Assembly (NCBI RefSeq): GCF_015644665.1
Contig: NZ_JADOBQ010000001.1
Span: 682,001-746,000 of the forward strand
DNA from: Roseobacter sp. MH60115
Lineage (GTDB): Bacteria; Pseudomonadota; Alphaproteobacteria; Rhodobacterales; Rhodobacteraceae
Direction: 5' to 3'
DNA length: 64,000 bases
A model generated the notes under the pieces. The model was not told where the DNA came from. It saw nothing but the letters and a program-made list of their open reading frames with translations, and did no database searches. Position numbers and translations under genes: made by a program. Below, in pieces: positions 38,847-50,702 of the stretch (its first letter is position 1; every line of letters begins with the position of its first letter).

Positions 38847-39590
38847 CTAGAGCAGTTCGCGCAGGAGCAAGACGGCGCCTGACAGAAAACAAACCGCAAT
38901 CAGCAACCGTCGGAAGACCGCGTCCTCCAAGCGACGGAAGACGAGGATGCCCGCTTGCGCTGCCACAAGCGCTGTCGGCAGGGCGATGCTGGCGTAGATC
39001 AGCGTTTGGGCATGGTAGGCGCCGTTCCACGCCAGCAGGAGCGCGGAAAGCCCCAACACCACGACGTTGAAAGGTTGCAGCACCGCACGGGTCTCATATC
39101 GGGGCCAGGCCCGCATCGAACACCACATGGTCGGCAGCGCACCGGAGAGCGAGGCCGCGCCCCCCAAGATGCCTGCGAAAAACCCGACCGTACAGTCGAT
39201 CACCGGGGTCGGACGGTCGATTTTGGGCAGAGTCCGGCGCAGGGTGAAGAACCCGCCGTAGAGGATCAGGAAGGCGGCAATCAGCAGCTTCAGGGCCGAC
39301 ACATCCACCTGTTTCAGCGAGGCAATGCCCAGCGGGATGCCGAAGAGGGCGGGCAAAAGGAAGCGCGCCAGACGCCGGGGGTTGTTTGCGATGGCGTGGC
39401 GCACGATCCAGAGCCCTTGCAGACCGCTGAAGACGGAGATCAGCAGGGTGATCGCGACAGCTTCCAGCGCGGGCATGACGCTGAGGAAAAAGCCCAGTGC
39501 AAACAGAGCGGTGCCGAACCCCGCAAGCCCGTTGATAAAGCCGCCCGCGATCGCTCCGATCACCAGATAGAGGATGTCGGCATTGTTCAT
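38847..39590 (-). CDS. TSUP (TauE/SafE) family permease
   Basis: A 247-residue membrane protein with about eight hydrophobic segments. GAIAGGFINGLAGFGTALFA near the N-terminus and GFFAGILGGAASLSGALPTM in the middle form the two repeated halves typical of TauE/SafE permeases. Members transport sulfite, sulfoacetate and other organic anions. It overlaps the LysR gene by ATGA and is co-transcribed with it. An organic anion related to the neighbouring dicarboxylate genes is the best guess. Confidence 0.9.
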   Translation of the reverse strand: MNNADILYLVIGAIAGGFINGLAGFGTALFALGFFLSVMPALEAVAITLLISVFSGLQGLWIVRHAIANNPRRLARFLLPALFGIPLGIASLKQVDVSALKLLIAAFLILYGGFFTLRRTLPKIDRPTPVIDCTVGFFAGILGGAASLSGALPTMWCSMRAWPRYETRAVLQPFNVVVLGLSALLLAWNGAYHAQTLIYASIALPTALVAAQAGILVFRRLEDAVFRRLLIAVCFLSGAVLLLRELL

Positions 39591-40498
39591 CCGTCACGCT
39601 CTTGTGCGCCGGGGTTGCCGAAAACGCCGATCTTGACCGATTCCAGACATAAGTGGTGCAGCGCGGTCAGCACCGGGCCAAAGGCCGTGTCCTGCGGAAA
39701 GGCCAGGCCAAGTTGGCGCACCGGTGCGTCGGCGCCCAGCGACAGGCGCTTGAGCGGCAGAGGGTTTTCAACCTGGACGGACCTCTTTGGCGCGATGGCC
39801 ACACCGAGTTTTGCAAAAACCATGCTGGAGATCGCCTCAAGCCCGTCCAACTCCATCGCCTCGCTGACCTTGATGCCCTTTCGTTGCAGCCAGCTTTCAA
39901 TCATCCGCCCGACCACCGCATCCCGGTTGAAGCGGATGAACGGGTATCTCTCCAGCAAATCAAACGGATCGTCACTGTCGATATCGCGCGACGCGAGGAG
40001 CTGTAGCGGTTCAGCCGCAATTTCGAGGAAATTCAACCCGTTCGGGAGCAGATCGGGGCGGGTGATGATGGCCGCATGCAACGCGCCGCGTTCAAGCTGC
40101 GAGACAAGCTGGTTGCTGAGGCCCGGGAACAGACGGACGCGCACCTGAGGATAGTCGGCGACCAGCATTGAGATGGCTGACGGCACCATCGTGGTCAGCG
40201 TCGTCGGCAATGCGCCGAGGCTGATGTCTCCGCTCACGCCACTTTCACCCAGGACCGAAGGCAGCATCTGATCATAGGCGTTCACCACCTCGCGCGCCCT
40301 GACCACAAGGGCACGGCCCAACGGGGTCAGCTCGGGGGTGCGGCGCGACCGGTCAAAGATCTGAATGCCCCAGGTCTCCTCCAGTGTGCGCATCTGCTGG
40401 CTGACGGCGGCGTGGGTCACGTGCACGGCATCTGCCGCCGCGCTGAATGTCGTGTGATCGTGCACGGCGATCAATGTCCGAAGCATACGTATGGACAT
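39587..40498 (-). CDS. LysR family transcriptional regulator
   Basis: A 303-residue LysR regulator. The start at 40498 (MSIRMLRTLIAVHDHTTFSA) fits the family length; the longer frame is spurious. The helix-turn-helix is FSAAADAVHVTHAAVSQQMR followed by TLEETWGIQIFDRSRRTPEL. The effector domain has ISLGALPTTLTTMVPSAISM and FAKLGVAIAPKRSV. It lies between the reductase-hydratase operon and tctCBA. Tandem T-N11-A boxes occur 29 bases upstream of its own start and again before the reductase operon. It is therefore the likely activator of both operons and controls itself. Confidence 0.92.
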   Translation of the reverse strand: MSIRMLRTLIAVHDHTTFSAAADAVHVTHAAVSQQMRTLEETWGIQIFDRSRRTPELTPLGRALVVRAREVVNAYDQMLPSVLGESGVSGDISLGALPTTLTTMVPSAISMLVADYPQVRVRLFPGLSNQLVSQLERGALHAAIITRPDLLPNGLNFLEIAAEPLQLLASRDIDSDDPFDLLERYPFIRFNRDAVVGRMIESWLQRKGIKVSEAMELDGLEAISSMVFAKLGVAIAPKRSVQVENPLPLKRLSLGADAPVRQLGLAFPQDTAFGPVLTALHHLCLESVKIGVFGNPGAQERDG

Positions 40499-40526
40499 TC
40501 GGCAAGCGGCCTTCTGTTCAGAAAAC

Positions 40527-40552
40527 TTACGAGAACTGTAACTTATTATTAC
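40527..40552. promoter_or_regulatory. Three-half-site operator TTAC-N7-GTAA-N7-TTAC (site B)
   Basis: TTAC (40527-40530), seven bases, GTAA (40538-40541), seven bases, TTAC (40549-40552). Read on the minus strand it is GTAA-N7-TTAC-N7-GTAA, the same layout as site A at 33956-33981. It lies in the divergent region between the LysR gene and tctC, 97 bases upstream of the tctC start. Confidence 0.7.
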
Positions 40553-40649
40553 TTCTATAAAGCATGTCTTAACGTTACCAATTGTCAAGGGTGCCGTCGG
40601 CTTGGCCCGGAACGGTCCGGAAACAAGACACGACTGGGAGGAAAAACGG

Positions 40650-41624
40650 ATGACATTCAAGACACTCGGTGCGGCTTGCGCCTTGACCCTCGGCCTGGCG
40701 GGGGTCGCTTTGGCGGAGTATCCCGAGCGGCCGATCAACATGGTGATCCCCTACGGCGCAGGTGGCGCCACGGACATTTCGGCGCGCACGATTGCCGAGC
40801 CGCTGGGGGCGGCTGTGGGCAAGCCGCTGGTCATGGCGAATGTCACGGGCGCGGGCGGGGCCACCGGCTCTGTCGCGGTGCAGAACGCCAAGGAAGACGG
40901 CTACACGATGCTCTTTGCGCGCGTCGGCTCGCATTCGGTGAACCCGGCGATGAAAGCGACGCTGCCCTATACGCTGGATGATTTCCGCTTTGTCACGGTC
41001 TACGAGATCAACCCGGTGGCCTGCGCGGTCAGCCCGTCATCTGGCATCACCTCGATGGAAGATCTGATCGCGAAGGTGGATGAAGGGGGCGTGACCTATT
41101 CCTCCTCCGGTGTCGGATCGCTGCTGCATCTGGCCGCCGTGATGGTGCTGTCGGAGTTCGGTGTCGAAGAACCGCTGACCAAGACCACACATATCCCGCA
41201 AAAGGGCGGCGGTGCTGCAGCGACAGCGGTGCTGAACGGCACGGCAACGTTCCTCTGCACCAACTCCTCCGCCATCGCGAGCTTTGTCGCCAACAAGCAG
41301 CTGGTGCCGCTGATGGTCACCACGGCAGAGCCGGTGGCCGGGTTCGACGTGCCGACAGCCGCTGATCTGGGCAAGCCCGCGCTGCACCAGCTGGTCGGCT
41401 GGACGGGCATTGCCGGGCCGGACGGTCTGCCCGATGATGTGGCGGACAAATGGGGCGCCTGGATGGCGGCCGCGACGGAAGATGCAGAGTTCCTGGAGAA
41501 GATGACATCGCGCGGGTCCGTCATTGAACTGATGTCGCCCGAAGACGCCAATGCCTTCATCGAAGGGCAATACAATACCTTCCGGAAACTTGTTGACGAT
41601 CTGGGCATGAGGATTGAAGGCTAG
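40650..41624 (+). CDS. tctC: Tripartite tricarboxylate transporter solute-binding protein TctC
   Basis: A 324-residue periplasmic binding protein (Bug family). The start at 40650 (MTFKTLGAACALTLGLAG) has GGGAGG upstream and a signal peptide cleaved near ALAEYPE. The mature N-terminus YPERPINMVIPYGAGGATDI is diagnostic of TctC/Bug proteins; ANVTGAGGATGSVAVQNAKE forms the second ligand loop. Its ligand is a carboxylate but cannot be specified. A terminator between it and tctB suggests that tctC is expressed more strongly than the membrane genes. Confidence 0.93.
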   Translation: MTFKTLGAACALTLGLAGVALAEYPERPINMVIPYGAGGATDISARTIAEPLGAAVGKPLVMANVTGAGGATGSVAVQNAKEDGYTMLFARVGSHSVNPAMKATLPYTLDDFRFVTVYEINPVACAVSPSSGITSMEDLIAKVDEGGVTYSSSGVGSLLHLAAVMVLSEFGVEEPLTKTTHIPQKGGGAAATAVLNGTATFLCTNSSAIASFVANKQLVPLMVTTAEPVAGFDVPTAADLGKPALHQLVGWTGIAGPDGLPDDVADKWGAWMAAATEDAEFLEKMTSRGSVIELMSPEDANAFIEGQYNTFRKLVDDLGMRIEG

Positions 41625-41656
41625 GTCCGAGGGCCGCAATGCATGCTACATGGAAA

Positions 41657-41687
41657 CGCCGGGCACTGTCTCTGCCCGGCGTTTTTT
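41657..41687 (+). terminator. Intercistronic terminator between tctC and tctB
   Basis: CGCCGGGCA (41657-41665), a seven-base loop and TGCCCGGCG (41673-41681) followed by TTTTTT. It lies 33 bases after the tctC stop. As tctBA follow on the same strand, it probably works as a partial terminator that sets the ratio of binding protein to permease. Confidence 0.85.
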
Positions 41688-41719
41688 CTTGAGACCCGGA
41701 ACGGGCGAGAGGAGGACCG

Positions 41720-42211
41720 ATGACACAAAGGCAGGTGCAATTGCGGCTGGGCGTCGGCGCGCTGCTGGTCGCGGTTTTTCTGGCTGTCTATGCCATTCCT
41801 GCCTGGGTGTCTTCGCCCAGCAATGTGGGCAATGTCATCCTGTCACCGTTATTCTGGCCCTACGCGCTGGCGGGCTTCACCGGTCTGGCCGGGCTGGGGT
41901 TGGTGTTTTCGGGCCTGCGGCATGAGGACACCGACACGCCCGTCAACGCTCCCAGCGAAAACCCGAATGCCGCCTGGCTGCGGCTGGCCGGTATGGCGGT
42001 GATCATGGGGCTGACCATGACTGCCCTGCCGCGTCTGGGCATGGTGCTGACCTCGATGCTGATCTTTGTCGCCACCGCCTTTCTGGTGCGCACGCGCCAT
42101 CCGGTCACAGCCGTGGTCTGCGCGGTGATCATCCCGTTGGTGCTTTACGCGTTTTTCGCCCATGTCGCCGGGGTCGCGATCCCGCAGGGCAACATCCTGA
42201 GGCTGCCATGA
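41720..42211 (+). CDS. tctB: Tripartite tricarboxylate transporter small membrane subunit TctB
   Basis: A 163-residue protein with four hydrophobic helices (GALLVAVFLAVYAIPAWV, YALAGFTGLAGLGLVFSGL, LRLAGMAVIMGLTMTALPRL, VLTSMLIFVATAFLV). TctB sequences diverge widely, and size, topology and position between tctC and tctA identify it. It has GAGAGGAGG upstream and overlaps tctA by ATGA. Confidence 0.9.
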   Translation: MTQRQVQLRLGVGALLVAVFLAVYAIPAWVSSPSNVGNVILSPLFWPYALAGFTGLAGLGLVFSGLRHEDTDTPVNAPSENPNAAWLRLAGMAVIMGLTMTALPRLGMVLTSMLIFVATAFLVRTRHPVTAVVCAVIIPLVLYAFFAHVAGVAIPQGNILRLP

Positions 42212-43722
42212 GCTTTCTGGACAGTCTTGCGGCGGGCCTCAGCCTGGTCGGCAATATCGAGAGTTTTCTGGCGCTTTTCATGGGTGTGGCCATCGGTGTG
42301 ATCGGCGGGGCGATCCCGGGCATGTCCGCCACCATGGCCGTGGCGCTGACCTTGCCCTTTACCTTCGCGATGCAGCCGATCACCGGTATCCTGCTGCTGC
42401 TCGGGGTCTACAAGGGTGGCATTTTCGGCGGCTCGATCCCGGCAATCCTGATCAAGACGCCGGGCACGCCCGCGTCCTCGGCCACGATCCTCGATGGCTA
42501 CCCGATGGCTGAGAAGGGCGAGGCGGGCCGCGCGCTTGGCATGGCGCTCTGGGCCTCCTGCACGGCGGATGTGATCTCCAACCTCTCGTTGATCCTCTTC
42601 GCGGGTTGGCTGGCCTCCTTCGCACTCAGCTTTGGACCGCCCGAGTTCTTCACGCTCATCCTCTTTTCCCTGACCATCATCGCCGGTGTCTCGGGCGAAA
42701 GCCTGTTACGCGGGGCACTCTCGGCGCTGCTCGGGTTGCTGTTGGCGACCATCGGGCTCGATCTGGTCTATGGCACCAACCGTTTCACCTTCGGCGATCC
42801 GAACATGATGGGGGGGCTGAATTTTATTGCCGTGCTGATTGGCCTCTTCGCCATCCCGGAAATCCTGGCCATGGTCTGGCATCCCACGGCGCATGTGGGC
42901 ACGGCGCGCAGCCTTGGCAAGAACTGGGTCAGCTTCGCCGACTACCGCCGCAGCTTCAAATCCATCGTGCGGGGCAGCTTCATCGGAGTGTTTCTCGGCT
43001 CCATCCCTGGTATCGGCGCTGCCCCTTCCGCCTTCCTGAGCTATTCTGAAGCGCGGCGCACGTCGAAGAACAAGGAGACCTTCGGCAAGGGCGAGGTCGA
43101 AGGCGTCGCCGCCTCTGAGGCGGGCAACAACGGGGTGGCCGGCGCCACGCTGATCCCGCTTCTGGCGCTTGGCGTGCCGGGCGATGTGATCACCGCGATC
43201 ATCATCGGGGCTTTCATGATCCACGGGCTGCAACCCGGTCCGATGATGTTCATCCTGAACGTCGATATCATCTACGGGCTCTTTATCGGGCTGATAGTCA
43301 GCTCGGTCTTCCTGTTCCTGATCGGCACCGTCGCCATCCGCGGGTTCAAATACGTGGCTGACATCCCCAAACGCATCCTGATCCCCGCCGTATTGGTGCT
43401 CTGCATCTATGGGGTCTTTGCAGTCAACAACAACATCTTTGATGTGGGCGTGATGTTCGTCATGGGCTGGGTCGGTTTCATGATGGTGCGCTATCACATC
43501 CCCGCCGCGCCCTTTCTGATTGCCTTCATTCTCGGTCCGCTGCTGGAGGATAACTTCCGCCAGTCGATGCTGATGTCGGGCAGCGACCCGTCCATTTTGG
43601 TGCGCGGCCCGATCACATGGTTCTTCTGGGCGATGACCCTACTGACCATCATCGCGATTGTGCGGGCAGGCGTGCGGGCGGTGAAAGGCACGCCAGCCCT
43701 GACGCCAAAGGTGAAGGACTGA
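42208..43722 (+). CDS. tctA: Tripartite tricarboxylate transporter large membrane subunit TctA
   Basis: A 504-residue permease. AIGVIGGAIPGMSATMAVAL and GVYKGGIFGGSIPAILIKTP, then TPASSATILDGYPMAEKGEA, are the signature motifs of the family (the GxxPGxSxTM and GGSIPAILIxTPGT loops). GSIPGIGAAPSAFLSYSEAR is the matching motif of the second half. It moves the carboxylate delivered by TctC using the ion gradient. It ends the operon. Confidence 0.95.
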   Translation: MSFLDSLAAGLSLVGNIESFLALFMGVAIGVIGGAIPGMSATMAVALTLPFTFAMQPITGILLLLGVYKGGIFGGSIPAILIKTPGTPASSATILDGYPMAEKGEAGRALGMALWASCTADVISNLSLILFAGWLASFALSFGPPEFFTLILFSLTIIAGVSGESLLRGALSALLGLLLATIGLDLVYGTNRFTFGDPNMMGGLNFIAVLIGLFAIPEILAMVWHPTAHVGTARSLGKNWVSFADYRRSFKSIVRGSFIGVFLGSIPGIGAAPSAFLSYSEARRTSKNKETFGKGEVEGVAASEAGNNGVAGATLIPLLALGVPGDVITAIIIGAFMIHGLQPGPMMFILNVDIIYGLFIGLIVSSVFLFLIGTVAIRGFKYVADIPKRILIPAVLVLCIYGVFAVNNNIFDVGVMFVMGWVGFMMVRYHIPAAPFLIAFILGPLLEDNFRQSMLMSGSDPSILVRGPITWFFWAMTLLTIIAIVRAGVRAVKGTPALTPKVKD

Positions 43723-43966: not shown

Positions 43967-44344
43967 ATGAACCAGGCCGAAGCCATTCTGATGGGGCTGC
44001 GCATCTGGGGCAGCATCGGTGCCGTGGTGGCCGCGATTTTCCTGACCATCGGCATGGACCGCATCGATGAGGATGCGCGCGGCGCCTATGTTTTTCGCCC
44101 CCTACTGATCCCCGGTATTCTGGTGATCTGGCCGTTGGTGCTCTGGCGCTGGTACCTCTATGAGAGCGGGCGCGAGCTCTGGGCGCGCCGCTATGATCCA
44201 CCGCGCCGGGCGCATTTTGCGGTGGGGTGGGTATTGCCCATCGGCATCGGCCTGATCATCCTGACGGGGCTCAGCCTGCGCCAGACGTGGCCTGCGGATA
44301 TCGCCCCGGTGCAACTTTCCGGTCCGGCGGAGGTGAGCCAATGA
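43967..44344 (+). CDS. Small membrane protein, first gene of the Rieske-ThDP cluster (unknown function)
   Basis: A 125-residue protein I do not recognise. It has three hydrophobic segments: GLRIWGSIGAVVAAIFLTIG, FRPLLIPGILVIWPLVLWRW and VGWVLPIGIGLIILTGLSL. Between helices two and three is a charged loop, ESGRELWARRYDPPRRAHF. Its stop overlaps the start of the cytochrome b-Rieske gene (ATGA). It is probably a structural subunit of the membrane complex encoded here. A similarity of arrangement to small anchors of cytochrome b complexes is inferred from topology only. The 244 bases upstream show no gene and presumably hold the promoter. Confidence 0.75.
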   Translation: MNQAEAILMGLRIWGSIGAVVAAIFLTIGMDRIDEDARGAYVFRPLLIPGILVIWPLVLWRWYLYESGRELWARRYDPPRRAHFAVGWVLPIGIGLIILTGLSLRQTWPADIAPVQLSGPAEVSQ

Positions 44345-45393
44345 GCGTCAAATACATCCCTGTCCAGTGGAACCCGAACAAATACATCTACGATGCGGTG
44401 ATGCTGCTGGGCGTGGCGCTCTTTCTCTATGTGTTTCTCTATGCCGCACCGGGCATTCTGAGCCACGAACGCCCGATCAACAGCCAAGTGCACAATGCCC
44501 GTGCCCTCGGGGCCTGTGCTTTTGTCATGCTGACCGTGATCCTTTGCATTGGCCCTCTGGCGCGGCTTGATCCGCGGTTTCTGCCCTTGCTCTACAACCG
44601 GCGTCATTTCGGGGTGATGACCGTCTTCGTGGCGATCACCCATGCGGGGTACATCGTCGATTGGTACTTCGCCTTCTCGTCATCGAACAAATACGAGGCG
44701 CTGCTCTTCGCCAATACCAGCTACGGTCAGCTTGCAGGCTTTCCCTTCGAGGTCTTCGGGGTTTTCGCACTCTTCACTCTGATCTTGCTGGCGGCGACGA
44801 GCCATGATTTCTGGATGAAGTTCCTCAGCCCGCCTGTCTGGAAGCGCATCCACTACCTGATCTACCCGGCCTACCTTTCGGTGGTGGCGCATGTGTCCTT
44901 CGGCATCCTGCAGGACCAGCAGAACCACGCCTTTACGGTGATATTCATCGGCGGTGCGGCGGCTGTTGGGGGACTCCACCTGATGGCTGCGCTAAAGGAA
45001 CGTCGCGCGGATCGGGCGCTGACGTCCGAGGTCGCCGGTTGGGTGCCGGTCTGCGACATCTCGGAGATGAAAGACGGTTTTGCCAAGATCAAGCTGCTGG
45101 CAAATGGCGAGCGCGTAGCGGTCTATCTAAATGACGGCAAGCTCAGCGCCATTTCCAACGCCTGCGCGCATCAGAACGGTCCGCTGGGGGAGGGGCAGAT
45201 CATCGACTGTCTGGTGACCTGTCCGTGGCACGGGTTTCAATACGATGTCACCAACGGCCAGTCGCCCGCGCCCTTCACCGAGAAAATCCCCACCTACAAT
45301 CTGAAGACCGACGGCACCCGCGTGCTGGTCGACCCCCGCGCCAACCCGCCCGGGACTTACGTGGAACCGGTACCCGTAGGAGCACCGTCATGA
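44341..45393 (+). CDS. Ferric-reductase-like membrane protein fused to a Rieske [2Fe-2S] domain
   Basis: A 350-residue two-domain protein. Residues about 15-220 contain six hydrophobic helices with candidate heme-ligating His residues (H89, H101, H171 and H184, for example VFVAITHAGYIVDW and IYPAYLSVVAHVSFGIL), as in ferric reductase-like (YedZ/MsrQ-type) domains. Residues 232-335 form a Rieske domain with Cys275/His277 in CAHQNGPLGEG and Cys294/His297 in CPWHGFQYDV, the ferredoxin-type Rieske seen in dioxygenases. It overlaps genes on both sides by four bases. It may pass electrons from a soluble partner through its Rieske centre and hemes to quinone or across the membrane. The direction is inference. 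Confidence 0.88.
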   Translation: MSVKYIPVQWNPNKYIYDAVMLLGVALFLYVFLYAAPGILSHERPINSQVHNARALGACAFVMLTVILCIGPLARLDPRFLPLLYNRRHFGVMTVFVAITHAGYIVDWYFAFSSSNKYEALLFANTSYGQLAGFPFEVFGVFALFTLILLAATSHDFWMKFLSPPVWKRIHYLIYPAYLSVVAHVSFGILQDQQNHAFTVIFIGGAAAVGGLHLMAALKERRADRALTSEVAGWVPVCDISEMKDGFAKIKLLANGERVAVYLNDGKLSAISNACAHQNGPLGEGQIIDCLVTCPWHGFQYDVTNGQSPAPFTEKIPTYNLKTDGTRVLVDPRANPPGTYVEPVPVGAPS

Positions 45394-46151
45394 GTGACAA
45401 GGATCGCCCCTTCTTCGTCGGATACCTGCCTGCGCCCAAGGCGCTGCGGGGTCTGTTGCTCGCTGTCTGTGTGCTATTTGTCTCCGGGCTGGCGGGGTTC
45501 GGTCTGGCGCTTGGCATCGCGCAGGATGATCCGGGTGACGGGGCATTCCGGTTCGACTACGGGCGGCAAACGGTTACCGGAGTCGTGGAACTGACACCCT
45601 ATCCGCTCTTGCGCGTCACCGAAGGCAATGAACGCATTCCGGCAGGCCACACGCTGATGCTGGCGGGCGGCGGCAAGACCAATGTGGAAAGCCGCGCGAT
45701 CCCGCTGGAGGGGCAATTGGCGCAGGTGTCCGGAGTGCTGCTCGAACGCGGATCTTTGGACATGATGCAGGTGCGGGGCGGTCGCAACGGCCTTCAAGCC
45801 GCTGAAGGGGAGGTGCCCGTCTTCGAGACCATCCCGCTTGGCCGCTGGAAGCTCGCGGGTGAAATCTGTGACGGCAAGTGCCTGGCCGGTGCCATGCGGC
45901 CTGGGCGCGGGTTGGCGCACAAAGCCTGCGCCAATCTCTGCCTGCTGGGAAAGGTGCCGCCTGTCTTTGTCTCGACGCAGCCTGTGGATGGCTCCGAATT
46001 CCTACTGGTCACTGGCCCCGATGGCGGGCACCTGCCGGAAAGCGCCTATCACTACGTGGCGCAGTTCGTCTCGCTTGAAGGCGAAGTGGAACGGCGCGGC
46101 GACCTGCTGGTTCTGCGCATGGACCCTAAGACGCTGGAGGTGCTGGACTGA
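45390..46151 (+). CDS. Membrane-anchored Cys-motif protein in the Rieske-ThDP cluster (unknown function)
   Basis: A 253-residue protein I cannot assign to a named family. One N-terminal helix (GLLLAVCVLFVSGLAGFGLA, residues about 20-40) anchors it, and the rest should be periplasmic. Two beta-rich, OB-like stretches (TVTGVVELTPYPLLRV; VSLEGEVERRGDLLVLRMDP) flank a distinctive four-Cys segment, GEICDGKCLAGAMRPGRG then LAHKACANLCLLGKVPPVFV. I have the impression that this Cys pattern recurs in proteins next to Rieske genes, but could not check it. The cysteines and His could bind a metal or heme. Its start overlaps the previous gene (ATGA) and its stop shares a base with the next start. Confidence 0.75.
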   Translation: MSDKDRPFFVGYLPAPKALRGLLLAVCVLFVSGLAGFGLALGIAQDDPGDGAFRFDYGRQTVTGVVELTPYPLLRVTEGNERIPAGHTLMLAGGGKTNVESRAIPLEGQLAQVSGVLLERGSLDMMQVRGGRNGLQAAEGEVPVFETIPLGRWKLAGEICDGKCLAGAMRPGRGLAHKACANLCLLGKVPPVFVSTQPVDGSEFLLVTGPDGGHLPESAYHYVAQFVSLEGEVERRGDLLVLRMDPKTLEVLD

Positions 46152-46432
46152 TGCGCCGCGTTCTCATGCTGATCCTGATCGCCTGTCTCGCTGCGATTTT
46201 CTTCTACCTCTCGCGCTTTTGGTACCTGTCGCTCTGGGACCGCCCGGGCCTTTTCGGGCTTGAGGCTTTGCGCCCGCAGGGCGGTCTTGTCGGCCAATGG
46301 CTGCGCGGGACCAATGCCGCCCCGTTCGAGCTGCTGATCTGGGCACTGGGGTGTTTCGCCATCCTGAGTCTTGCTCAGAAGCTCTATGATTTCTTCACCA
46401 CGCCATCTGAAACAGGAGAGCCAAATGAGTGA
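46151..46432 (+). CDS. Small two-helix membrane protein in the Rieske-ThDP cluster (unknown function)
   Basis: A 93-residue protein with two hydrophobic segments: VLMLILIACLAAIFFYLSRF and ELLIWALGCFAILSLAQKLY. The loop between them holds DRPGLFGLEALRPQGG. It has no motif I recognise. It overlaps the next gene by eight bases. Its tight packing between the anchored Cys protein and the Rieske-ThDP gene makes it a candidate subunit that docks the soluble fusion enzyme to the membrane. Confidence 0.75.
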   Translation: MRRVLMLILIACLAAIFFYLSRFWYLSLWDRPGLFGLEALRPQGGLVGQWLRGTNAAPFELLIWALGCFAILSLAQKLYDFFTTPSETGEPNE

Positions 46433-48404
46433 CGAAACCCTCGACTGGATCAGCGTTGGCCACACCGATGACCTGCCTGAAGGCCGGGTCAAGACGGTCA
46501 CCGCCCGCACCACCTCGATCTGCCTTGTGCATTTCGACGGGCAGTGGGCGGCGATGAACAACCACTGCCCGCATCAGCGGGGGCCGCTGGGCGAAGGGTC
46601 CATCGAAAAAGGCATCGACGACAAATGCTGGATTCGCTGCCCCTGGCATGGCTGGGATTTCGACCCGCTGACCGGCAAGCCGCCCGGCGGGCATGAGGAC
46701 ACCGGCCAGCAGATGTACCCGGTGGATGTGCGGGGCGGCGAGATTTTTGTAGGCATCGAACCCGAGCCGCCGCATGAACGGACGGTCACGGACGTCATGG
46801 TGGAGACGCTCAGCAATTGGGGCGTGCAATCGGTTTTTGGCATGGTGGGCCATTCCAATCTGGGGCTGTCGGATGCGATCCGGCTGGCCGTGGTGGATGG
46901 CAGGATGTCTTATTTCGGCATCCGGCACGAAGGTGCTGCGGCCTTTGCAGCCTCGGCCTACGGCAAGCTGACCGGTACGCCCGCCGCCTGTCTGACCATT
47001 GCGGGGCCGGGGGCCACGAACCTGCTCACCGGACTCTGGGACGCCAAGGTGGACCGCGCGCCGGTGCTGGCGTTGACCGGGCAGGTGCAGACGCAGGTCA
47101 TGGGGCCAGGAGCGTTTCAGGACATCGATCTGCTCTCGGCGTTTCAGGCCGTCACCAGCTTCTCGCAACCGGTGCTGGGCAGTTCCAACCACGCGGAGCT
47201 GGCCTCGCTCGCCTGCAAGACAGCGATTGTCGAGCAGAACGTCGCGCATCTGATCTTCCCGGATGATGTGCAGACGAACCGCTCGGACAAACCCGCCGGT
47301 GCGCCGGAGGGGCGGGTGACAGCAGCCCCCGTGATCCCGGCGCAAAGTGAGATCGACAAGGCGGCTGCAATGATCAAGGCCGCGAAACGCCCGATCATCG
47401 TGGTCGGCCACGGCGCCTACCCGATGCGCGAGGACATCGCGGCGCTGGCCGAAACCCTCGGCACACCTGTCCTGACCACGTTCAAGGCCAAGGGGCTTTT
47501 GCCCGATGACCACTCATGCGCAGGCGGGGTGCTGGGCCGGTCCGGCACACCCATCGCCAGCTGGTTCATGAATGAGGCCGATCTGATCATTGCCCTTGGC
47601 ACCAGTTTCTCTAACCACACCGGGATTGAGCGCAGCAAGGACATCATCCAGGTCGATCACGAGCGCATGCAGCTAGGCAAGTTTCACCCCGTGGCCCTGC
47701 CGATCTGGGGCGACGTCGGGGCGTTCTGCGAGGCCATCGCCAAGGCGGATCACAAGAACCCAGACGCGGTGGCTCAGATCACCGAACTGGCAGAGCGCTG
47801 GGACATCTGGCGGCGGGAAAAACAGCAGCGGCTGGCAGAAGACACGGGCCGGGGGATCCATTCCTTTGCCATCTTCGAGGCGCTGGGGCGGCTGGTGCCG
47901 GAGAACACCATTTTCGCCGTGGACGTGGGCAACAACACCTATTCCTTTGGCCGCTATCTGGAAACCAAGGGCACGCAGCGGGTGCTGATGTCGGGCTATC
48001 TGGGCTCCATCGGGTTCGGTCTGCCCGCCGCCATGGGGGCCTGGGCGGCAACGCAGGATAAGGATGATCTGAAGGGGTGCAAGGTCGTGTCCATCTCGGG
48101 CGATGGCGGCTTTGGCCAATACCCGATGGAATTCACGACGGCTGTCAAATACGGCATGGATATCACCCATATCCTGCTGCACAACGGCGAGCTGGGCAAG
48201 ATTTCCAAGGAGCAGCGGTCGGGCGAATGGCCGGTCTGGGAGACCGATCTGCAGAACCCCGGCTTTGCCGCCTTTGCGCGTCTCAGCGGCGGGCACGGGG
48301 TGAAAGTCACCGAGGCGGGTGATCTGGAGGCCGCGATCCGGGAAGCCCTGAACCACAAGGGCCCGGCGCTGGTCGAGATCATGACGGATGCGGAGTTGGT
48401 CTGA
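46425..48404 (+). CDS. Rieske [2Fe-2S] domain fused to a ThDP-dependent enzyme (pyruvate oxidase/acetolactate synthase-like)
   Basis: A 659-residue fusion. The start at 46425 (MSDETLDWISVGH) has GGAGAG upstream. Residues 5-112 are a Rieske domain with ligands Cys48, His50, Cys72 and His75 (NNHCPHQRGPLGEG, IRCPWHGWDFD). Residues 120-659 are a complete ThDP enzyme. Glu169 in FGIRHEGAAAFAASAYGKL activates the cofactor; GPGATNLLTGLWDAK matches the family; the ThDP motif runs from SGDGGFGQYPMEF (GDG 559-561) to Asn587. Overall it most resembles PoxB-type pyruvate oxidases. A joined Rieske centre could take electrons from 2-oxoacid decarboxylation to the membrane Rieske-cytochrome encoded upstream. 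FAD binding and substrate are unknown. Confidence 0.9.
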   Translation: MSDETLDWISVGHTDDLPEGRVKTVTARTTSICLVHFDGQWAAMNNHCPHQRGPLGEGSIEKGIDDKCWIRCPWHGWDFDPLTGKPPGGHEDTGQQMYPVDVRGGEIFVGIEPEPPHERTVTDVMVETLSNWGVQSVFGMVGHSNLGLSDAIRLAVVDGRMSYFGIRHEGAAAFAASAYGKLTGTPAACLTIAGPGATNLLTGLWDAKVDRAPVLALTGQVQTQVMGPGAFQDIDLLSAFQAVTSFSQPVLGSSNHAELASLACKTAIVEQNVAHLIFPDDVQTNRSDKPAGAPEGRVTAAPVIPAQSEIDKAAAMIKAAKRPIIVVGHGAYPMREDIAALAETLGTPVLTTFKAKGLLPDDHSCAGGVLGRSGTPIASWFMNEADLIIALGTSFSNHTGIERSKDIIQVDHERMQLGKFHPVALPIWGDVGAFCEAIAKADHKNPDAVAQITELAERWDIWRREKQQRLAEDTGRGIHSFAIFEALGRLVPENTIFAVDVGNNTYSFGRYLETKGTQRVLMSGYLGSIGFGLPAAMGAWAATQDKDDLKGCKVVSISGDGGFGQYPMEFTTAVKYGMDITHILLHNGELGKISKEQRSGEWPVWETDLQNPGFAAFARLSGGHGVKVTEAGDLEAAIREALNHKGPALVEIMTDAELV

Positions 48405-48484: not shown

Positions 48485-49189
48485 ATGAACGATATTCTGG
48501 AAGGCCTGGTGGCGGCATTCTGGCTGGTGGTCACCTTCGATCCTGACCTGATGCAAATCTCGCTGCGCTCCTTGCAGGTGAGCCTCTCGGCGCTTGTAAT
48601 TGCCTCTGCCATTGCCCTGCCGCTGGGGACCTTTCTGGCAATCCGGCGGTTTCGCTACCGGCGGCTGACGATTTCGCTGCTGAACGCGCTGATGGGGCTG
48701 CCGCCGGTGGTGGTGGGGCTGATCGTCTACATCCTGCTGTCGCGGTCGGGGCCTTTTGGCGTGTTGGGCCTGCTCTTTACGCCCACCGCCATGATCATCG
48801 CGCAGGTGATCATCATCACGCCGCTCATTGCCTCGATCACCCATCAGGCCATGCGCGAGCTCTGGGCGGAATACCACGACCTGCTGATCTCGCTGAACAC
48901 CAGTGGCTGGCAGCGGATCAAGACGCTGATCTGGGACGGGCGGCGCAACCTGCTCACGGCCTCGCTGGCCGGGTTCGGGCGGGCCATTGGTGAGGTTGGC
49001 GCGATCATGATCGTGGGCGGCAACATCGACAATGCCACCCGCGTGTTGACCACGGCCATCGCGCTGGAAACCGGCAAGGGGGATTTCGCTCTGGCGCTGG
49101 CCCTGGGCTTTGTGCTGATCGCGCTGGCCATCGGCATCAACATCAGCATCCACTGGCTGTCGCGCACGGAACGGGAGGGGCGGTGGTGA
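48485..49189 (+). CDS. tupB: Tungstate ABC transporter permease TupB
   Basis: A 234-residue permease with five or six helices. ALMGLPPVVVGLIVYILLSR and SGPFGVLGLLFTPTAMIIAQ are typical of TupB/WtpB-related permeases. The EAA-type coupling region is HDLLISLNTSGWQRIKTLIW, and GRAIGEVGAIMIVGGNIDNA is highly conserved in TupB. It starts 80 bases after the Rieske-ThDP gene with no terminator between them, so it may share that transcript. Tungstate supply would suit a tungsten or molybdenum bis-pterin enzyme such as the formate dehydrogenase downstream. Confidence 0.93.
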   Translation: MNDILEGLVAAFWLVVTFDPDLMQISLRSLQVSLSALVIASAIALPLGTFLAIRRFRYRRLTISLLNALMGLPPVVVGLIVYILLSRSGPFGVLGLLFTPTAMIIAQVIIITPLIASITHQAMRELWAEYHDLLISLNTSGWQRIKTLIWDGRRNLLTASLAGFGRAIGEVGAIMIVGGNIDNATRVLTTAIALETGKGDFALALALGFVLIALAIGINISIHWLSRTEREGRW

Positions 49190-49899
49190 GCGTGATGCTG
49201 CCCTTGACACTCAAGGATGTGTCCGTGCGCCGGCGCGGCAAGCGTCTGCTGGGTCCTGTGAACCTGACCCTGAACCCCGAGGGGCTGACCATGATCGTGG
49301 GTCCCAACGGCAGTGGCAAGACCACCCTGCTGCGGGTCATGCACGGGGTGGAACGGTTGAGCGAGGGCAGCGCGACATGGGCCGTGCCCGAGGAGGAGGC
49401 GCGCCACCGACAGTCCTATGTCTTTCAGACGCCGATCATGTTGCGCCGCACGGTGGCCGACAACCTGCGCTATCCCCTGCAACTGACTGCCAAGCCCCGC
49501 GCGGAGATTGAGGAGCTTGTGCATCACTGGCTCAAGAGGATCGGACTGGACGCGCGGATGGGCCTGCAGGCCACCCGGCTCTCGGGGGGGGAGAAACAGA
49601 AGCTGGCGCTGGCCCGCGCGCTGATCCGCAAACCGGATGTCCTGTTTCTGGACGAACCCTGCGCCAATCTCGATGGGGCCTCCACCCGCGACATCGAAAC
49701 CATTCTGCGCAGCGCATTATTGGAAAAAACCCGCATTATCATGACCACACATGATCTGGGTCAAGCCAGACGTCTCGCGGGTGATGCACTCTTCATGTTG
49801 CATGGCGTCGTGCATGAAAGGGGTCCCGCATCGGATTTCTTCAGCGCGCCGCAGACCGCCGAATTGCAGGCATTCTTCAGAGGAGACATCATCGCATGA
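49186..49899 (+). CDS. tupC: Tungstate ABC transporter ATP-binding protein TupC
   Basis: A 237-residue ATPase with Walker A IVGPNGSGKTTLLRVMHGV, signature TRLSGGEKQKLALARALIR, Walker B VLFLDEPCANLDGAS and switch His in MTTHDLGQARRL. No Mop domain is present, unlike ModC. The likely start is the GTG at 49186, whose GTGA overlaps the tupB stop and which has GAGG seven bases upstream. GTG 49183 and ATG 49195 are alternatives. It overlaps tupA by four bases. Confidence 0.93.
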   Translation: MSVMLPLTLKDVSVRRRGKRLLGPVNLTLNPEGLTMIVGPNGSGKTTLLRVMHGVERLSEGSATWAVPEEEARHRQSYVFQTPIMLRRTVADNLRYPLQLTAKPRAEIEELVHHWLKRIGLDARMGLQATRLSGGEKQKLALARALIRKPDVLFLDEPCANLDGASTRDIETILRSALLEKTRIIMTTHDLGQARRLAGDALFMLHGVVHERGPASDFFSAPQTAELQAFFRGDIIA

Positions 49900-50702
49900 T
49901 GACGCGCATCGCAGCACTTTTAACAACGGTGTTCTTGGGCACCGCCGCATTGGCCGAAGACATCAAACTGGCCGTGACCACCTCATTTGAAAACTCCGGC
50001 CTAGCCGATGTGCTGTTACCGGCCATCAAGGAAGATCTCGATCTGGATGTGCAACTGCTCGTGGTCGGTACCGGCCAGGCCCTGCGGTTGGGAGAGGCGG
50101 GGGATGTCGATGCGATCCTGGTGCACTCCCGCACGGCCGAGGAGAAGTTCGTGGCCGAAGGCCATGGCACCTACCGGCGCGAGATCATGTATAATGATTT
50201 TGTCTTCATCGGGCCCAAGGAGGATCCGGCTGGCGTGGCCAAGGCAGGCTCAGCTGCCGAAGCTCTCAAACGTATCGGTGTGGTCAAACCCGCCTTTGTC
50301 AGCCGCGGCGATGACAGCGGTACCCACAAAAAGGAAATCGCCCTCTGGCAGGCGGCTGATCTGGCGCCAGAGAGTTTTGGCGACTGGTACCGGGAAGTCG
50401 GCGCAGGGATGGGTGCGAGCCTGAACACGGCGGCGGGTCTCGATGCCTACATCCTGGCGGATCGCGCGAGCTGGCTCAACTTTGGCAACAAGGCGGGCCT
50501 CGATCTGCTCTATGCCGGGGACGCGGCACTCTTCAACCAATACGCCTTTCTGGCCGTGAACCCGGAGAAACACGCCCATGTCCGGAATGATCTGGCGCTG
50601 CAGCTGGAAGACTGGCTGACCAGCCCGCGCGCAGCAGAGCTGATCAACGGCTACACCATCAACGGCGAGACGCTCTTTATCTTCAACGCAAAACCCGAAT
50701 AG
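49896..50702 (+). CDS. tupA: Tungstate-binding periplasmic protein TupA
   Basis: A 268-residue binding protein with a signal peptide cleaved near ALAED. The oxyanion-binding motifs of TupA are all present: LAVTTSFENSGLADVLLP (TTS), DAILVHSRTAEEKFVAEG (VHS) and SRGDDSGTHKKEIALWQ. These set it apart from ModA. It is last in tupBCA, an unusual order in which the binding protein follows permease and ATPase. Parts of it resemble the N-terminal half of the cytochrome-like protein at 54882. Confidence 0.95.
   Translation: MMTRIAALLTTVFLGTAALAEDIKLAVTTSFENSGLADVLLPAIKEDLDLDVQLLVVGTGQALRLGEAGDVDAILVHSRTAEEKFVAEGHGTYRREIMYNDFVFIGPKEDPAGVAKAGSAAEALKRIGVVKPAFVSRGDDSGTHKKEIALWQAADLAPESFGDWYREVGAGMGASLNTAAGLDAYILADRASWLNFGNKAGLDLLYAGDAALFNQYAFLAVNPEKHAHVRNDLALQLEDWLTSPRAAELINGYTINGETLFIFNAKPE

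Follow-up and report, generated by a model that had tools for sequence, protein, structure and literature searches.

What a Rieske iron-sulfur domain does at the head of a complete thiamine diphosphate (ThDP)-dependent enzyme is the question raised by one gene of Roseobacter sp. MH60115 (NCBI RefSeq assembly GCF_015644665.1), which lies in a 64,000-nucleotide stretch of contig NZ_JADOBQ010000001.1 (positions 682,001 to 746,000 of the forward strand; hereafter the window, in whose numbering all coordinates are given). At 46425-48404 on the plus strand, a single frame of 659 residues with zero internal stops encodes this Rieske-ThDP fusion enzyme, which we call FUS. We lean towards the view that FUS is a 2-oxoacid oxidoreductase of the pyruvate oxidase (POX)/pyruvate:quinone oxidoreductase (PQO) lineage that exports its electrons through the fused Rieske domain, because of its lineage, a kept oxidase glutamate, a lost C-terminal tail, the iron-sulfur (Fe-S) domains added to it, and neighbouring genes whose products carry matching plugs. 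ThDP oxidases are known to pass electrons to flavin adenine dinucleotide (FAD), quinone, O2 or, in pyruvate:ferredoxin oxidoreductase (PFOR), 4Fe-4S clusters, and the fusion family probably represents a new route by which electrons leave ThDP chemistry.

All Pfam domains of FUS scored above their gathering scores. The Rieske [2Fe-2S] domain (PF00355, E 2.8e-17) spans residues 8-86 (46446-46682), followed by TPP_enzyme_N at residues 120-236 (46782-47132, E 7.9e-32), TPP_enzyme_M at residues 310-437 (47352-47735, E 2.6e-35), and TPP_enzyme_C at residues 500-652 (47922-48380, E 2.2e-32). The original prediction for this locus had proposed a Rieske domain followed by a complete ThDP enzyme in one frame, and both translation and the domain search of the 659-residue product bore this out; every residue it named was found at its proposed position, namely the Rieske ligands Cys48 (46566), His50 (46572), Cys72 (46638), and His75 (46647), the activating Glu169 (46929), which shares the N domain with His143-Ser144-Asn145, and Gly559-Asp560-Gly561 (GDG) with Asn587 (48183) in TPP_enzyme_C. 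FUS accordingly has the ThDP N/M/C domains, activating glutamate, and GDG...N motif that POX/PQO membership demands. It is present in a single copy in its own genome, where five other ThDP enzymes align to the ThDP part alone at 27-30% identity.

The chance that a frameshift, an assembly or sequencing error, or mis-annotation has united two genes is practically negligible: the Rieske domain lies upstream of the ThDP enzyme in one frame at 85 of the 85 loci whose surroundings were studied, and the fusion appears in sequence records from various archaea as well as bacteria, which refutes an artefact. These loci comprise the 80 best relatives (63-96% identity) and five plasmids, and 54 have full flanks; the 80 are the best of at least 580 confirmed relatives (at least 589 GTDB stretches matched our alignment A1) and are no census of the weaker ones. 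Three open reading frames (ORFs) that fell in the FUS cluster (L072, L084, L092) were excluded from the fusion count. The best 80 relatives belong mainly to marine Alphaproteobacteria, with some Gammaproteobacteria. Four haloarchaeal plasmids encode a relative that tblastn aligned to 98-100% of the FUS length at 56.5-58.3% identity, as does a Mycobacteroides abscessus plasmid at 50.5% identity over 98%; a Roseibium/Labrenzia homologue is about 74% identical. All five plasmid records annotate the product as 'thiamine pyrophosphate-binding protein'. A frame on a Granulicella plasmid (H6) was rejected as a relative, being a ThDP enzyme without a Rieske domain. The original prediction knew of no characterised enzyme with a built-in Rieske centre, and we likewise found no published description of a Rieske-ThDP fusion in the open-access literature, among the matches listed (titles and abstract openings). 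A widespread family that combines the POX fold with Rieske and CDGSH domains would be a further solution to electron exit from ThDP.

The kinship of the ThDP part was assessed by sequence and by fold. A profile of 53 FUS members compared with solved sequences scored PoxB (296 bits) above acetohydroxyacid synthase (AHAS) I (253 bits) and L. plantarum POX (251 bits). The structure of FUS was predicted with AlphaFold2 as a single chain without cofactors (predicted local distance difference test 87.2, predicted template modelling score 0.86). Foldseek placed C. glutamicum PQO and PoxB first, and VIA superposed PoxB over 512 residues at 2.5 Å (Z 40.1). PoxB (E. coli, 3EYA), PQO (C. glutamicum, 9EV5), and POX (L. 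plantarum) share with FUS residues 116-659 the three-domain ThDP fold, the activating glutamate, the GDG...N metal motif, Phe231-Gln232, Glu596, and conserved equivalents of the FAD site; FUS differs from them in its N-terminal Rieske domain, the lack of a PoxB-type tail, a lysine in place of phenylalanine at residue 592, and an identity of only about 25%. PoxB extends approximately 40 residues past the end of FUS, whose last aligned position in 3ey9 is 528 of 572, and this C-terminal tail, which has no counterpart in FUS beyond about PoxB residue 531, is the membrane- or lipid-binding part of PoxB (compare the title of 3EYA).

Conservation was read from 109 distinct FUS rows, after 3 duplicates were dropped. 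Glu169, Asp560, Lys592, Glu596, and Gln597 are invariant (109/109), and Asn587 is present in 105 rows, with aspartate in the remaining 4; the invariance of His143-Ser144-Asn145 arises by construction, as VGHSN was the string that rows had to contain and the pattern of the scan resembled it. By alignment, Lys592 (48198) and Glu596, both in TPP_enzyme_C, occupy the places of Phe479 and Glu483 of L. plantarum POX, the former column being identified by the tryptophan of the F479W variant 2ez4. Of this active-site pair, the glutamate is kept and the phenylalanine has become lysine, and the two POX residues occur together in none of the 109 rows. The lysine in the pocket suggests that the substrate may be an anion other than pyruvate.

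Ten FUS positions align to the FAD site of PoxB (UniProt site numbers). Over the same rows, the major residue at these positions reaches a mean frequency of 0.91, compared with 0.74 at all other middle-domain positions, 0.86 for the N domain, and 0.82 for the C domain; the ten include Gly371-Arg372-Ser373, Ser394-Phe395, and Asp411 within TPP_enzyme_M. A retained dinucleotide would fit this conservation, which is no proof of FAD binding because ADP-binding enzymes use the same pocket. The original prediction had electrons pass straight from the ThDP intermediate to the Rieske relay. Such a direct single-electron transfer from a ThDP radical without FAD, PFOR-like chemistry on a pyruvate-oxidase fold, could draw on the longer relatives described below, which place four Fe-S domains ahead of the ThDP enzyme in a wire-like series, and on Lys592, which sets the site apart from flavin oxidases; the high conservation of the FAD-site equivalents counts against it, leaves the directness unsupported, and renders a FAD step at least as likely, and we regard the direct route as quite unlikely. 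What stands of that prediction is a decarboxylase or oxidase feeding a Rieske relay, as the ThDP part is nearest to pyruvate oxidases and a relay fits the Fe-S domains of the neighbours and longer relatives. PFOR and OFOR resemble FUS in concept, as ThDP enzymes with wiring to Fe-S clusters, but where PFOR has 4Fe-4S clusters of ferredoxin type, FUS and its longer relatives have Rieske, CDGSH, or Fer4_19 domains, and no PFOR domain was among the six Pfam matches.

FUS might instead be a non-oxidative ThDP carboligase or decarboxylase, with its Rieske domain acting as a redox switch or structural element that turns the enzyme on or off. The AHAS large subunit has the same fold (AHAS I is 29% identical to FUS in the Foldseek alignment), 2-hydroxyacyl-CoA lyases are also near in sequence and fold, and AHAS keeps an FAD without a redox role; in addition, ECF-sigma-like genes (recognised by eye) and zf-HC2 anti-sigma-like genes stand near 9 and 8 of the 85 loci, respectively, making stress control possible. 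However, FUS falls below the AHAS cut-off (TIGR00118, 281.9 of 538.35 bits), has Glu596 where AHAS I has glutamine, and bears a Rieske domain; six of the seven genomes tested encode an AHAS over the cut-off elsewhere, the exception being G037, and a sensor would need no Rieske or CDGSH tags on its neighbours. We consider such a non-oxidative enzyme unlikely and retain an oxidoreductase of the POX/PQO lineage as the preferred reading.

The Rieske part of FUS is itself well kept. All 108 rows that reach the four ligands (CxH...CxxH) keep them, the FUS of genome G078 (L125) being truncated by a contig end. The motifs, CPHQ and CPWHGW, are without the extra disulfide cysteines and the serine of the bc1 type, which are marks of high-potential bc1 Rieske centres. 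For residues 1-118, the nearest NCBIfam models were ferredoxin types, with 55 bits for HcaC-like PRK09965 and 45 bits for NirD, all below cut-offs; ferredoxin-type Rieske proteins (HcaC, AndAb, NirD) are the best relatives of this part, from which it differs in those scores and in being joined to a ThDP enzyme. No catalytic mononuclear-iron domain, as in a Rieske non-haem iron oxygenase, follows the Rieske domain among the FUS Pfam matches, and residues 120-652 are instead the ThDP enzyme. Rieske ferredoxins usually deliver electrons into enzymes, which would suit a reversed flow in which the Rieske domain feeds the ThDP site for reductive carboxylation or the reduction of an acyl intermediate; ferredoxin-type Rieske potentials, at about -150 mV, are however far too high to drive reductive carboxylation, and we hold this direction to be very improbable.

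Additional Fe-S domains precede the Rieske domain in some relatives. Of 289 genomes drawn evenly from the class, 14 encode FUS (E <= 1e-120), and in five of these CDGSH domains share its open frame: G093, G235, G151, and G109 have one open frame of CDGSH-Fer4_19-CDGSH-Rieske-ThDP, and G035 has two CDGSH repeats ahead of the Rieske domain. Pfam confirmed four of the five extended frames (L121, L123, L124, L118), and that of G235 (L122) was read by eye; at none of the 85 loci does FUS carry a CDGSH domain of its own. Proteins that join CDGSH to Fer4_19, Glu_synthase, or Rieske_2 have been described (PMC5859297), and their accessory domains are those of the longer FUS forms and of the glutamate-synthase-like partner discussed below; by word search, the main text of that paper differs in naming no TPP, thiamine, pyruvate, or acetolactate. 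A dihydroxy-acid-dehydratase-like gene (named by look) lies 5' of the CDGSH form in G235 and G151 and had suggested that FUS replaces acetolactate synthase; this candidate was dropped, as each of the two encodes an AHAS above the cut-off at another place in its genome.

In the preferred reading, ThDP in a soluble FUS, activated by Glu169, would attack and decarboxylate a 2-oxoacid, and oxidation of the resulting enamine would follow, probably by FAD bound in the middle domain. Electrons would then exit singly via the fused ferredoxin-type Rieske [2Fe-2S] cluster, in place of an exit to quinone that depends on a membrane-docking C-terminal tail.

Candidate acceptors were sought among the neighbouring genes, which at the 85 loci were clustered using a simple ORF caller and blastp, with family names taken from one or two scanned representatives. 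In the window, five plus-strand genes between 43967 and 48404 (43967-44344, 44341-45393, 45390-46151, 46151-46432, and FUS) overlap successively, given our choice of starts, so that a coupled operon is likely. Three genes upstream of FUS, 44341-45393 encodes FRD-R, a membrane ferric-reductase-like protein of 350 residues with a C-terminal Rieske domain (Pfam Ferric_reduct and Rieske), whose homologues are found near FUS in 37 of the 85 loci; in each of 38 rows examined, five histidines (89, 101, 155, 171, 184) are invariant and the Rieske ligands complete. The last predicted helix is followed by basic residues, which by the positive-inside rule suggests that the Rieske domain of FRD-R faces the cytoplasm. 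In the genome of the window, the likely acceptor of electrons from FUS would be this Rieske domain, from which they may pass via haems to quinone or to the periplasmic face, where u253 would be situated. The layout of FRD-R is that of architecture M4, in which the FRD superfamily is joined to a Rieske domain (PMC3591440); the part of that work consulted here draws no link to a ThDP enzyme.

The remaining products of the putative operon each have one or more transmembrane segments. The protein u253 (45390-46151), with one transmembrane segment and a beta-rich part predicted in two repeats, has invariant Cys164, His177, Cys180, and Cys184 (37 rows) and homologues in 38 of the 85 loci. It has no Pfam or NCBIfam match at E 0.01, and its best match to a PDB sequence (E 0.041) was not convincing; Foldseek found nothing at E <= 0.001, and the best VIA match (Z 7.3) covered 84 residues at a root-mean-square deviation of 3.2. 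The model points to a common barrel arrangement at most, and we claim no function, the cysteine and histidine set being a possible new metal or cluster site. The first gene (43967-44344) encodes b125, a small multi-transmembrane protein that is weakly cytochrome-b561-like (Pfam Ni_hydr_CYTB, E 0.006, below cut-off), with homologues in 16 of the 85 loci as a chosen ORF and 25 by blastp; u93 (46151-46432), a small protein with two transmembrane segments whose end overlaps the ATG of FUS by 8 bases, has homologues in 16 and 18 loci by the same two counts.

In many relatives, a second acceptor may be a glutamate-synthase-like (GltS-like) flavin mononucleotide (FMN) enzyme tagged with a Rieske or CDGSH domain; neither this partner nor FRD-R had been seen by the original prediction, which the context of the locus extends in this respect. 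GltS-like genes are present at 58 of the 85 loci, 51 on the same strand as FUS and 33 within 300 bases. Their products carry an N-terminal Rieske domain in 51 of 58 cases, CDGSH in 4, and neither in 3, of which one lies at a contig end, one was shortened by the start that the ORF caller chose, and one (L045) is without either motif. The replacement of Rieske by CDGSH, observed in L074, L075, and L076, where the gene adjoins FUS, and in L080, where it is near, has the form of a domain swap. The scanned representative matched Pfam Glu_synthase (306 bits) and Rieske, and the 3Fe-4S motif Cx5Cx4C is found in 54 of the 58 proteins. In the window genome, no GltS-like protein was found at E <= 1e-120, only partial matches (34-38% identity) within other proteins, starting after the tag. 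The gene was probably lost there, because L029, a close relative of the window locus, is without it and L030 (Roseobacter insulae) has it between TctA and b125.

GltS-like and FRD-R genes occur together at 30 of the 85 loci, GltS-like alone at 28, FRD-R alone at 7, and neither at 20; restricted to the 54 fully flanked loci, the same split is 25, 15, 3, and 11. A more speculative proposal, to which we give a minor chance, is that FUS and the tagged GltS-like enzyme form one machine in which 2-oxoacid oxidation drives an FMN/3Fe-4S reductive amination, yielding glutamate or a relative of it, by cluster-to-cluster transfer without NAD(P)H or free ferredoxin; it would serve salt adjustment by K-glutamate, and genomes without the partner would use the membrane Rieske protein. 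The salt-adjustment part is proposed because a cation/proton antiporter of the Na_H_Exchanger type lies near FUS in 28 of the 85 loci, weakly TrkH-like genes lie near 7 (best NCBIfam E 0.0018, far below cut-off), and the habitats are marine or haloarchaeal. Were such a machine real, it would represent a general kit in which unrelated enzymes take interchangeable Fe-S plugs. Through Fe-S tags that can be exchanged among enzymes of ThDP, FMN, and haem type, the exit of electrons from ThDP would become testable in a single soluble polypeptide.

Association was also evident at the level of whole genomes. In the class draw, where u253 was counted at E <= 1e-15 and GltS-like at the threshold used for FUS, FUS was found in 14, GltS-like in 12, and u253 in 14 of the 289 genomes. 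FUS and GltS-like co-occur in 7 genomes, where chance would give 0.58 (p 8e-8, hypergeometric; 5 genera have both, p 4e-5), and FUS and u253 in 7, where chance would give 0.68 (p 3e-7; 5 genera have both, p 1e-4); all three are present in 6. In G145 and G231 the three genes sit on separate contigs, and in G043 and G163 they are tens of kb apart. Inspection by eye of u253 and GltS-like regions, 11 from genomes without FUS and 2 from G145, brought out no evident common neighbour, with an ORF picker that missed genes such as the GltS-like gene of L175.

Several observations weigh against a POX/PQO-type oxidoreductase served by these partners. With Lys592 at the place of the POX/PoxB phenylalanine, FUS may depart from pyruvate oxidation in its substrate or even in the reaction catalysed. 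FUS falls below the NCBIfam pyruvate oxidase cut-offs, scoring 373.7 of 742 bits for PRK08611 and 328.1 of 788 for PRK06457, as well as 288.6 of 792 for PRK09124 and 281.1 of 637.85 for SpxB. The top VIA row is an HKA synthase (Z 40.4), which is tied with PoxB, and AHAS and lyases are near; given this tie, neither of the two ranks was used alone. At 20 of the 85 loci neither proposed acceptor, GltS-like or FRD-R, is nearby; at the thresholds used, GltS-like and u253 are each missing from 7 of the 14 FUS genomes, so neither is obligatory for FUS, and all five genomes with CDGSH-bearing FUS are without both. Conversely, u253 (7 genomes) and GltS-like (5 genomes) are also found without FUS, and the association p-values ignore relatedness beyond genus.

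The presence of FUS is patchy, as it occurs in 15 of 59 genomes comprising its own and near relatives (E <= 1e-60): its own, 10 of 18 from the same genus, 1 of 16 from the same family, and 3 of 24 from the class. A draw of the phylum yielded 5 carriers among 299 genomes. The four haloarchaeal rows group as a single clade, with support 100, in a quickly built tree of the ThDP part and are nested among proteobacterial rows, a placement which suggests that haloarchaea acquired FUS by transfer from bacteria; because the branches of the six outgroup rows are saturated (length 10), we do not rely on the root and claim no sister family. Two FUS contigs labelled as Campylobacteraceae (L085) and Thermoleophilia (L097) also lie among proteobacterial tree rows, perhaps through mis-binning or transfer.

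Other genes flank FUS in the window and its relatives. A TctCBA tripartite tricarboxylate transporter (40650-43722) with a divergent LysR-like gene (39587-40741) is located in the window, and directly 3' of FUS, 48485-50702 encodes a permease, an ATPase, and a binding protein, of which the permease and binding protein are most TupB- and TupA-like (tungstate), below cut-offs. Both transporters were dropped as clues to the substrate, as TctC, TctB, and TctA homologues lie near 2, 2, and 4 and TupB and TupA homologues near 2 and 2 of the 85 loci; homologues of TupC, a general ABC ATPase, lie near 14. DUF5996-type genes occur in 13 of the 85 loci, all within 300 bases of FUS (e.g., L088, L091, L099, L103, L062, L036).

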